64,000 nt of DNA from Williamsia serinedens (GTDB taxonomy: Bacteria > Actinomycetota > Actinomycetes > Mycobacteriales > Mycobacteriaceae), in NCBI RefSeq assembly GCF_024171725.1, contig NZ_JAMTCG010000004.1, positions 434,001 to 498,000 of the forward strand, read 5' to 3'. Below, one piece after another: positions 23,201 through 42,107 of the stretch. The notes beneath the pieces are model-generated. The model ran no database searches, was not told the DNA's origin, and saw only the letters and a list, made by a program, of their open reading frames with translations. Position 1 is the stretch's first letter. Each line of letters opens with the position of its first letter. A program made the translations under genes and the position numbers.

Positions 23201-26200
23201 GCGACGGGACGTCCGATGGGGACCGTGTCGGTGTCGGCGGCGGTGTACGGGTGGTAGGTGACGTCCACCGCGGCCTCGGTGGGGCCGTACAGGTTGTGGA
23301 CGGCCGCGCCGGAGATCGACGCCATGCGGGCGGCGACGTGCGGCGGGAGGGCCTCGCCGCTGGCGAACACCAGACGCAGGCTGCGCAGCGCGGCGACAGG
23401 GCCGTCGGCGACACCGGGTTCCGACGCGAGGGCCGTGGTGAACGCCGACATCATCGACGGCACGAAGTGCAGTGTCGTGACACCGGTCTCGGCGATCAGT
23501 CGCGCCAGGTACGCCGGGTCCCGATGCCCGTCGGGGGCGGCGACGACCAGGGTCGCACCGGTCTGCAGCGGCCAGAAGAACTCCCACACCGAGACGTCGA
23601 AGGTGGCGGGGGTCTTCTGCATGACGACGTCGTCACCGCCGATGGGGTACTCGGACTGCATCCATCGCAGACGGTTCACGATCGCGCGGTGGGTGACCGC
23701 GACGCCCTTGGGGCGCCCGGTCGACCCGGACGTGTAGATCACGTACGCGGTGTGGTCCGGCCGCAGCGGGGCGATCCGCTCGTCGTCGGTGAGTGGGCCG
23801 TCGTCGACGGAGCCGAGGTCGAGGGCGTCGATCTCGACGACCGGCGCCCCGTCATGGGTGAACCCGTCGCGACCGGTGGTGAGCACGACGGCGGGCCGCG
23901 CGCTGTCGAGGATGTAGGCGACGCGCTCCGCGGGGTGGTCGAGATCGACGGGCACGTACGCACCACCCGCCGCGACGACGGCGTACATGCCGACGAGCAG
24001 GTCCGTCGAGCGCCGCATCGCGAGTCCGACGTGGACGTCGGGCCCGACGCCCGCGGCGACGAGGTGGCGCGCGAGACGGTGCGCGCGCGCGGCGAACTCC
24101 GCGTAGTCGATCGATGCGCCCTCGACGACCAGCGCCGTCGAGGCCGGAGTCCGACGCACCTGTTCCTCGAAGAGGTCGATCAGGGTCAGCGCGTCGGTGG
24201 TGGGTGCCGCGCCGGACTCGGCGATGACCGAGGCCAGCATCCCGGAGAACTGTTCGGCGAACGCACCGCCGGTGTCGTCGAGGAGTCCCGGCAACAGCGT
24301 CGACAGGGCGATCGTGACCGCGGCCTCCGGCCCGATGCCGACCGCACCCAGCGTCGCCAACAGCTCCGTCGACTTCGCCTGGAGCTCGCCGTAGGTGACG
24401 TCCACCCCACCGTGGGACAGGGCGACCCCGTCCGGGTTGATCCGGGCCGCCGTCGCGAGCAGTTCGTCGAGGGACCGACCCCGCAGACCCTCTGCGTCGG
24501 CATCACGCCCCCGCGGGTCGGCGTCCCCGGTCTTCTCGAGCTGGTCGCGTTCGGCGTCGGTGAGGATGTCGATGTCGCCCAGCGTCACCGACGGGTCGTC
24601 GGCGACGGCGGCGAGCACCGCGACGAAGCGCTCCCCCATCGCGGCGACCGTCTCCTCGTCGAAGATGTCGACGGCGTAGTCGAGCAGGACGTCGATGCCG
24701 CGGCCGCGTCCGTCGGCGCCGAACGTCTCGGAGATCGTCATGCCGACATCGGATTTGGCGAACCGCACGCCCCACTCGAGCGGCGTCACGCTGAGACCGG
24801 GGAGTTCCACCGTCGGGATCTCGATGTTCTGCATGGTCAGGTTGACCTGCACGAGCGGCGCGTACTTGCGGGTGCGTACAGGCGCGACCGCCTCCACCAC
24901 CTGCTCCAGCGGCACGTCCGAGTTGTTGAACGCGGCGAGGTCGGCCTCGCGGGTGCGGGCGAGGGCGTCGACGAACGTGTCGGACCCCGAGACACGTGTG
25001 CGCATCACCAGCGTGTTGACGAACATGCCGACCAGGCCGTCGACAGCGGACGCTGTGCGCCCTGCGGTCGGCGTACCGACGGCGACGTCGTCGGTGCCGG
25101 CCAGGCGGGCGAGCAACGCCGCGAACGCGGTGTGCACGACCATGAACATCGTCGAGTCGGTGTCGGCGGCGATGCGGTGCAGGCGTTGCTGCAGCGTGGC
25201 GTCGATGCTGAAGGTGACCTCCCCGCCGACCAGGGAACGGCGGTCGGTGCGGGGACGGTCGGTCGGGATCTCGAGCAGATCCGGCAGACCGGCGAGGTGG
25301 TCCCGCCAGAACTGCAGCTGACGACCGGTCACCGAGTCGGGGTCCTCGGGAGACCCCATGACGGTCTGCTGCCAGATCGCGAAGTCGGCGTACTGCACCG
25401 TCAACGGCCGGAAGCGCGGTTCGGCGCCGGCCACCCGGGCGGTGTACGCGGTCATCAGGTCCGTCGCGAGCGGCACCAGCGACGACCCGTCGGCCGCGAT
25501 GTGGTGGATGACCAGCAGCAGGACGTGATCGGTCGGGGCGATCTCGATCAGCAGGGCGCGCAGCGGGGGCGCCGCGGTCACGTCGAAGCCGGTGCTCGCC
25601 ACCTCGAGGCAGATGTCGCGCACCATCTGCTCGCTCGTGGCCGTGTGCCGTTCCAGCGCCACCGACGACTCGTCGACACCGAGAATCCGCTGGTACGGCC
25701 CGTCCACCGAGTCCGGGTACGACGTCCGCAGGATCTCCTGCCGGGCGACGAGGTCGGTCAGCGACGCGGTGAGCGCGGCGACGTCGAGGTCGCCGGTGAG
25801 CCGCAGACCGAGCGGGATGTTGTAGTCGGCAGCCGTCGGGTCCAGCCGGTTCAGGAACCACATCCGCTGCTGGGCCAGCGACAGCGGGATCCGATCCGGT
25901 CGATCGGTGGCCGTGAGTGGCGCGACGGCGTCCCCGGACAGGTCGGGTGACGCCTCGATCGCCGCCGCGAGGTCGGCCACGCCCGGCGTCTCGAACAGCA
26001 TCCGCACACCGAGGCGCACACCGAGCGACTCGTTGATCCGTGCCATCGCGCGGGTCGCGGCCAGGGAGTTGCCGCCGAGGTCGAAGAAGGAGTCGTCCGC
26101 GCCGATCTGCTCGCCGCCGAGGACCTCGGTGAAGGCGTTCGCGACGATGCGCTCCATCGGGGTGCGCGGGGCGGTGTACTCCCGTGCGGCGCCGAGGAAC

Positions 26201-41780: not shown

Positions 41781-42107
41781 TCAGGCGCCGGCGGCGACGA
41801 CCGCCGAAGCGCGCAGAGAGGCCAGCGTAGCCGCCAGCCCCGACGGCCCCGACGCGGCGAGCCCGGGGACGGTCATCATCAACGCCACGGTGAGGGTGGA
41901 GTCGTCGATCGAGGACGAAGACGCCATCGACGTCATCGCGGCACGGGCCGCGCCGGCGAGCTGCCCGAACGAGACGCGCACATCCGGACGGGTCACGGCG
42001 ACCGCCTCGGGCGCCGTCGCGGCCGCGCGGGTGACGAGATCGCCGAGGGTGGGCGCTGCGCCCTTCCCACGCGGGGTGTCGACATCTGCCCGGAGCGTGG
42101 TCGCCAC
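41781..42107 (-). CDS. Small half-A-like protein, NRPS cluster (108 aa)
   Basis: 108 residues from the GTG at 42107, chosen because GGAGGAGGG lies just before it; the frame could also open at 42137 without such a site. Residues 20-108 align ungapped over 89 columns with the insert of NRPS module 5 ([26 protein letters not shown]), with roughly a quarter identity by eye. It has only the opening of an A domain and no nucleotide-binding motif. First gene of the minus-strand run 42107-40854 (this gene, mbtH, second small gene) that leads to the NRPS. Function unknown; a scaffold, decoy or chaperone-like role at the A domain or MbtH is one possibility. Confidence 0.75.

Follow-up and report, generated by a model that had tools for sequence, protein, structure and literature searches.

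Half-A, a candidate docking module at the condensation/adenylation junction of nonribosomal peptide synthetases in Williamsia and related genera

The docking parts that join successive subunits of nonribosomal peptide synthetases (NRPSs) fall into three classes in the excerpted text of PMC9113145, namely the COM helix-hand, the PAX three-helix bundle and the β-hairpin with its short linear motif (SLiM), located at epimerization/condensation (E/C) or peptidyl carrier protein/condensation (PCP/C) junctions. According to the excerpt of PMC8362031, docking domains typically sit between two modules, and NRPSs have been cut artificially at the linker between the condensation (C) and adenylation (A) domains with the use of synthetic zippers. 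PMC9113145, in the same excerpt, describes split modules of trans-acyltransferase polyketide synthases (trans-AT PKSs), in which the subunit break falls inside a module and is held by docking parts. Here we analyze a stretch of 64,000 nucleotides from Williamsia serinedens (NZ_JAMTCG010000004.1, positions 434,001 to 498,000; hereafter the window), in which a giant NRPS and two small proteins encoded beside mbtH carry four copies of a module of about 90 residues, referred to as half-A. Judging from sequence and gene order, we consider it probable that half-A serves heterotypic docking within NRPS modules, at the C/A junction, with embedded and free copies binding complementary surfaces.

Like the COM, PAX and β-hairpin systems, as far as the excerpt of PMC9113145 describes them, half-A has putatively complementary donor and acceptor types, placed where the C-terminus of one subunit faces the N-terminus of the next. 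Those systems consist of small helices or hairpins placed between modules, whereas half-A has about 90 residues, is derived from the A domain, has homologous partners on both sides and marks a break between C and A of one module. The Pfam matches of 30 half-A members give no sign of kinship with these classes, in a comparison that held no COM or PAX sequences. In the Type S NRPSs of the PMC8362031 excerpt, too, the enzyme is severed at the C-A linker, and a binding pair brings the parts back together non-covalently; these pairs are engineered coiled coils, whereas half-A would be a natural counterpart at the same linker. Trans-AT PKS breaks involve PKS domains with four-helix-bundle or DHD docking parts (PMC9113145, as excerpted), and the half-A members scanned in Pfam match no such family. 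No report of a half-A-like module was found among the listed results of searches in the open-licence PubMed Central literature, and the excerpts of a Rhodococcus survey (PMC5550956) and a Nocardia NRPS survey (PMC4035055) make no mention of one. If the proposed binding holds, half-A is docking by function, but a new family at a new junction: the others lie between modules, and a natural pair that connects C with A within one would count as a new class of docking. NRPS engineers, who already cut at the C-A linker, could then make direct use of its three natural classes of matched pairs.

Composition of the half-A module

All four copies in the window are encoded on the minus strand. Two are inserts of about 90 residues in the giant NRPS, E3 (31084..31353) between C3 and A3 and E5 (24208..24474) between C5 and A5; both are extra, since complete A domains (A3 and A5) come after them. 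The other two are free proteins. F1 (41781..42107; 108 aa) is encoded upstream of mbtH, has a GTG start with GGAGGAGGG just upstream, and is half-A from residue 20 to its last residue, 108, while F2 (40854..41285; 143 aa) is encoded between mbtH and the NRPS gene and is half-A over about residues 24 to 117. The original prediction, made from the window sequence and its open reading frames (ORFs), had the positions of all four segments right, with E3 now taken as 31084 to 31353 and the half-A of F2 extended to about residue 117.

Leave-one-out profiles, in which three segments were used to find the fourth among 520 window ORFs, give E-values of 1.7e-6 (F1), 2e-4 (F2), 8e-6 (E3) and 1e-7 (E5). 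Plain A-domain starts of the window NRPS match these profiles in the same range (best 1.3e-7), but over columns 1 to 68 only, and because they score alike these four-sequence tests do not by themselves settle the case of E3 and E5. We also used an external profile, built from 38 docking ends that belong to other genera; Williamsia and all embedded and free copies were left out of it. It covers 81 to 89 of 95 columns in each of the four segments (E = 5.9e-18 for E5, 4.7e-16 for E3, 1.1e-12 for F1 and 4.3e-7 for F2; overall 6e-18 to 4e-7), which rules out chance resemblance and confirms by sequence comparison that E3, E5, F1 and F2 are true relatives, members of one protein module. The expectation that a profile search would link all four is thereby borne out. 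Their proposed gapless alignment stands in its extent, 81 to 89 of 95 columns, and fails in its strict form, as F2 needs small gaps; the proline at column 62 with which they were said to depart from A domains is invariant, near that column, in the half-A alignments.

Half-A consists of the first ~60 residues of an A domain followed by a tail of ~35 residues. It keeps the motif [VL][TS][YF]xxL, which we take to be A-domain core motif A1, and ends before A2; thus the A domain (PF00501) and half-A share their first ~60 residues and A1, whereas core motifs A2 to A10, with the ATP and substrate site, and hence the catalytic core, are absent from half-A. The predicted lack of a nucleotide-binding core agrees with this, similarity ending within the first 60 to 70 columns and the free proteins being only 108 and 143 aa long. 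In Pfam (E ≤ 0.001), the 30 half-A members match only PF00501 (5/30; the match of E5 is weak) and DUF7158 (1/30, below its cut-off). NCBIfam matches of E5 are to several adenylate-forming families, and the Pfam and NCBIfam scans together returned only A-domain starts or weak, probably chance, matches. PF03621 (MbtH-like) is matched by neither F1 nor F2. The best 60 of 99 profile matches in PDB are A domains and related adenylate-forming ligases, with the linear gramicidin synthetase LgrA first (E = 9.4e-16); all 60 end by profile column 60, leaving the tail unmatched. A relative of the tail (columns ~60 to 95) was looked for in the libraries searched and none was found. The tail has a pattern of its own, including the invariant proline, and is probably helical. 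In 19 fetched sequences, the 38 copies used to build a half-A model score 56 to 92 bits over its full length and A-domain starts at most 40 bits over columns 1 to 70, with one further full-length copy at 36 bits. Because A-domain starts reach 52 bits (3.4e-13) over whole genomes, coverage of the tail and not the bit score is the criterion for half-A.

Subunit breaks between C and A

The evidence that carries the docking interpretation comes from split NRPSs. In 58 of the 58 loci with both ends seen (53 unique and 5 more), the upstream ORF ends in C-half-A and the downstream ORF starts with half-A-A; the break falls inside one condensation-adenylation-thiolation (C-A-T) module, after C and before A, and is bordered by half-A on both sides. 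Since the regions were picked from match lists, this count describes what two-ended loci look like and not their frequency. Loci L023 and L034, the same places as L073 and L098, were dropped before counting, a single end was seen in six further loci (L033, at a contig end, L035, L089, L121, L122 and L130), and 17 of the 20 regions of one picked set showed both ends. The original prediction, that the segments have a partner, docking or regulatory role in such NRPSs, is supported, and docking is the best supported of these options because half-A caps both sides of the gene break in every two-ended locus.

The two ends are closely placed and distinct in sequence. The half-A of the C-end stops 1 to 20 residues before the stop codon (53 loci), and the second half-A starts within 208 bp of the upstream stop in 51 of 53, the other two distances being 0.8 kb and 10.7 kb. 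In a tree of 168 rows, which has few columns and unsure deep branching, C-ends and N-ends separate within each class (main C 94/85, main N 96/96). Both ends belong to the same class in 53/53 loci (43 main, 7 C7-class and 3 E3-class), 16 of these loci being class references that were each left out of their own score. As in docking domains, half-A occupies the facing termini of successive subunits in all 58 loci (the window copies being embedded or free), and the C and N groups with their matched classes are consistent with separate donor and acceptor types. Opposite charges between half-A types were not seen in the mean net charge, which is negative throughout (C -6.3, N -9.8, E3 -9.8, E5 -8.9, F1 -2.1, F2 -2.3).

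We propose that one subunit, through the C-type half-A at its carboxy end, binds the N-type half-A that starts the next. The bound pair would keep C next to A and let the cut C|A-T module, in the arrangement seen at these loci, work as one. Embedded (E3, E5) and free (F1, F2) copies would similarly bind complementary half-A surfaces. A broader scenario, which we put forward tentatively and think rather less likely to be right than wrong, is that a broken A domain became a family of homologous, orthogonal docking modules with which one group of actinobacteria cuts and rejoins NRPS modules at C/A, shares one upstream subunit among several downstream ones, staples giant NRPSs together and frees copies as trans-acting braces or switches with MbtH.

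One genome (G092) has a 3,210-aa C-ended subunit, then an 8,812-aa subunit with a terminal thioesterase (TE) motif, then an 8,820-aa subunit; the two downstream subunits each begin with an E3-class N half-A, the two copies being 83% identical, and another contig carries a third E3-class N-start. Docking predicts such an arrangement, in which a single upstream part has more than one possible partner downstream, and the gene order suggests branched assembly lines in this genome. Such predicted lines, with one upstream and two or more downstream subunits, would alter peptide prediction for Rhodococcus-like genomes. In the same genome (L121, L122), four N-starts face two C-ends, and downstream NRPS subunits outnumber upstream ones.

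Two genomes served as controls. In G027, all three A-first NRPS ORFs carry half-A, and it is at the start of none of the C-first ORFs. In the window genome, the split subunit has half-A and an A-first NRPS on contig C2 is without it; a C-ended neighbour of this C2 ORF was looked for and none was found. The split pair of the window genome lies ~10.5 kb past the window edge (C4:422851-423108 and 423225-423491; L072) and belongs to a second NRPS system near that of the window, with a 2,716-aa frame ending in C-half-A and a 12,624-aa frame starting with half-A-A. At four other loci (L026, L074, L084 and L090), the split halves share a reading frame and are separated by a single TAG, which a start codon follows at once; readthrough of the TAG would give one giant chain.

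Embedded and free copies

E3 and E5 are both present in 32 of the 32 giant-NRPS loci fetched, as single copies exactly at the C-A linker, and in 19 of 20 named loci, many of which are the same places. In the twentieth, Rhodococcus tukisamuensis, the domain order is the same up to C3, and a break divides the E3 site into a C-end and an N-end; no E5 was seen in the fetched stretch. In the tree, 28 of 31 E3 rows cluster with split pairs of this kind (94/94), which suggests that the site can hold either a single half-A in cis or two half-As across a break. The copies were typed with C versus N models in three sets (all-class, C7/N7 and main-class). E5 is C-like in 31/32, 23/32 and 32/32 loci, respectively, as is the window copy, and E3 leans weakly toward N (24/32, 16/32 and 19/32), again as in the window. 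In 11 genomes, exactly two full-length half-As were found at E ≤ 1e-8, namely E3 and E5, with no free copy found there, and as the only full-length copies E3 and E5 may pair with each other. One giant NRPS (L068, genome G024) has a degenerate E3 (31 bits) and a degenerate E5 (53 bits), and is possibly from a lineage losing half-A.

The precise and single placement of the embedded copies, together with the shared evolution of E3 with its own C3 and A3 rather than with E5, F1 or F2, would also fit a half-A that acts in cis as a spacer or scaffold on its own C and A, setting the C-A geometry with no dimer, the split ends each keeping a half. We regard this as unlikely, given that split breaks hold two copies of distinct groups and not one, that free copies exist and are conserved, and that at least two downstream subunits with the same N-class can face a single upstream one.

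For the docking interpretation, the free copies are the less settled part. F1 clusters with C7-class C-ends (99/86) and is typed C-like in 16/16 loci (15/16 by the main-class models), whereas F2 is typed N-like in 13/16 (all-class), 16/16 (C7/N7) and 12/16 (main-class); the window copies are C-type-like and N-type-like, respectively. F2-like proteins form a family of free proteins of their own, with profile matches in 53 of 341 genomes of the window's family (5/31 genera) and, among the matches listed, 67/67 in open frames of 101 to 420 aa. The window mbtH (41527..41748, minus strand; 73 aa) matches PF03621 at 1.9e-30, and the operon order on the minus strand is F1-mbtH-F2-NRPS. The predicted link of the free copies to mbtH recurs in 36 of 42 further loci inspected, with mbtH on the same strand 4 to 328 bp upstream of the F2-type gene; the six exceptions are four second copies in g11 genomes, one locus with mbtH at 1450 bp and one without mbtH in the fetched stretch. 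The order F1-mbtH-F2 is kept in 15 of 16 loci with an F1/F2 pair. In three of the four g9 clusters mapped, mbtH-F2 cassettes lie on both sides of a split NRPS; the fourth has the downstream cassette only, with 3.4 kb fetched past the other end. Given this recurrent order, free half-A beside mbtH is a conserved unit and not a local accident, and small proteins encoded next to mbtH, which family models leave without a name, gain a context through half-A. On contig C2, the window genome has a second mbtH, with no half-A match nearby.

MbtH binds A domains. The free copies, made with MbtH, might brace, cap or chaperone C-half-A-A joints while MbtH binds the A domains, the two forming a two-part aid for A domains at these joints; this is the weakest step of the proposal and we hold it with less confidence than the rest. 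The close tandem of mbtH and F2 (36/42) and the cassettes flanking split NRPSs (3/4 g9 clusters) would also be expected if half-A, above all the F2 type, were a co-chaperone that binds MbtH or the A domain and aids folding or activity, its occurrence at breaks being secondary. This seems improbable to us, as F2 occurs in 5/31 genera against 20/31 for half-A (the latter count includes some A-domain starts), 11 genomes with E3 and E5 have no free copy found, and, of the 42 F2 loci, five lack mbtH in the stretch fetched and a sixth has it 1450 bp away. The typing of F1 as C-like and F2 as N-like, and the grouping of F1 with C-ends of split NRPSs, carried also by 6/8 g1 genomes, would further agree with free copies as trans-acting regulators or decoys, competing with docking ends and switching between a coupled and an uncoupled assembly line. 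That role appears quite unlikely, because F1 and F2 also occur in the g11 genomes, G023, G002 and G003, where a census at E ≤ 1e-8 found no split pair. The g11 genomes have in addition a second F2-like protein, Fx (L037:5808-6287; L169, L175, L176 and L178), with no mbtH nearby. In G017 (L037), Fx lies ~5 kb after the giant NRPS and adjoins glycosyltransferase and pyruvyl transferase genes, which hints that the NRPS product is glycosylated.

Purifying selection acts on all four copies. A simple Nei-Gojobori estimate on ten pairs per copy puts the ratio of nonsynonymous to synonymous substitution rates (dN/dS) at 0.02 to 0.09 for E3 in 8/10 pairs (one pair at 0.62 and one saturated), 0.02 to 0.21 for E5, 0.05 to 0.44 for F1 and 0.03 to 0.16 for F2. 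Low values in most pairs speak against half-A as a functionless scar of A-domain exchange or of gene fusion or fission, to which its kinship with A-domain starts and the C|N split of R. tukisamuensis at the E3 site of the giant NRPSs could otherwise be attributed. With its place conserved across genera, a tail of its own and free genes in a conserved operon position, such a remnant is highly improbable, and we rejected it on dN/dS and recurrence.

Covariation was less favorable. When C3, C5, A3 and A5 first served as background, correlations appeared for E5-F1 (0.73), E5-F2 (0.78) and F1-F2 (0.71), with Mantel p < 0.001 for these three, and for E3-F1 (0.29, p = 0.035). With modules 1, 2 and 4 as background, which also underlies the correlations given below, these fell to 0.13, 0.46 (p = 0.011), 0.17 and -0.05, and the first values were discarded as an effect of module-3 exchange; of the six E/F pairs, E5-F2 alone stands out, weakly.

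Several results weigh against docking as proposed here. E3 and E5 do not covary (r = -0.17 in 14 loci and -0.18 in 30), E3 shows no residual covariation with F1 or F2, and module 3 is inherited as a unit, since E3 tracks its own C3 and A3 (r = 0.75 to 0.86); as a comparison of sequences, this counts against a specific E3:E5 pair. The class matching of neighbouring genes can reflect joint inheritance. Only 3 of the 8 tails tested are clearly amphipathic by helical moment. Free copies are not generally needed, because 11 genomes hold E3 and E5 with no free copy found, and full-length copies are even in number in many genomes and not in all (5 in the g11 genomes, 3 in G102). Finally, a tandem profile for a fused half-A-half-A protein, run on 401 genomes with at most 8 candidates scored per genome, gave no such protein among the matches listed: six that span both halves each hold a TAG, and those that cover columns 2 to 161 with no stop consist of E5 and the A-domain start behind it.

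Distribution and the window locus

The association with NRPS genes that had been expected does recur: half-A occurs in about half of the 401 sampled genomes of the window's family, and in nearly all fetched stretches it lies within an NRPS or next to mbtH. At E ≤ 1e-10, 221 of 401 genomes match, in 20/31 genera. The best match of 20 of these is no better than 2.6e-13, in the range of plain A-domain starts, so ~201/401 is the safer figure, although one of the 20 (G323) does carry an F2-like copy. A phylum sample of 396 genomes has five genomes with matches, all in the window's family, as are 17 of the 18 matching genomes in an order sample of 348; the eighteenth (G896) matches over columns 1 to 57 only and was read as an A-domain start. 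A match on an Azotobacter chroococcum plasmid was dismissed too, as it covers columns 2 to 55 with the A3 motif at its normal distance, that is, an ordinary A-domain start. Named loci with half-A are from Williamsia, Tomitella, Prescottella and Rhodococcus, and a Nocardia farcinica record also has a split pair. By these profile matches, half-A is confined to the window's family within the samples searched, plus the one Nocardia record. A locus of Williamsia type appears under the title Kitasatospora arboriphila NRRL B-24581 (L105, NZ_JNYV01000004.1); the title is probably wrong.

The giant NRPS of the window (6493..40602, minus strand) has 11,369 aa and nine A-domain motifs by its ORF and motif maps, with condensation and AMP-binding matches; a thioesterase motif was looked for in the motif map and none was seen. 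C3, directly before E3, is at 31408..32739 (PF00668; contig 465408-466739, the window offset being 434000) and C5, directly before E5, at 24538..25893 (PF00668; contig 458538-459893), both on the minus strand. The stretches that follow the inserts on this strand contain A3 (29401..31047; PF00501 5.6e-56, PF13193 1.2e-9) and A5 (22537..24183; PF00501 3.4e-89). E3 at this locus is 99% identical to that of an uncultured Williamsia and 89% to that of W. deligens, its nearest named relatives.

A3 is complete and atypical. It has the weakest PF00501 score among the three stretches tested and reads FDSTQKNIW where the other eight A domains of the window NRPS read FDxSxxE, and from this motif its substrate may be unusual. 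Near the NRPS operon are genes for a DrrA-like ABC transporter ATPase and an ABC-2 permease as well as a wax ester synthase/DGAT gene (window 42396-44260 and 46689-48128), and ribosomal protein L4 is found in the ORF at 1305-2705 of the window.

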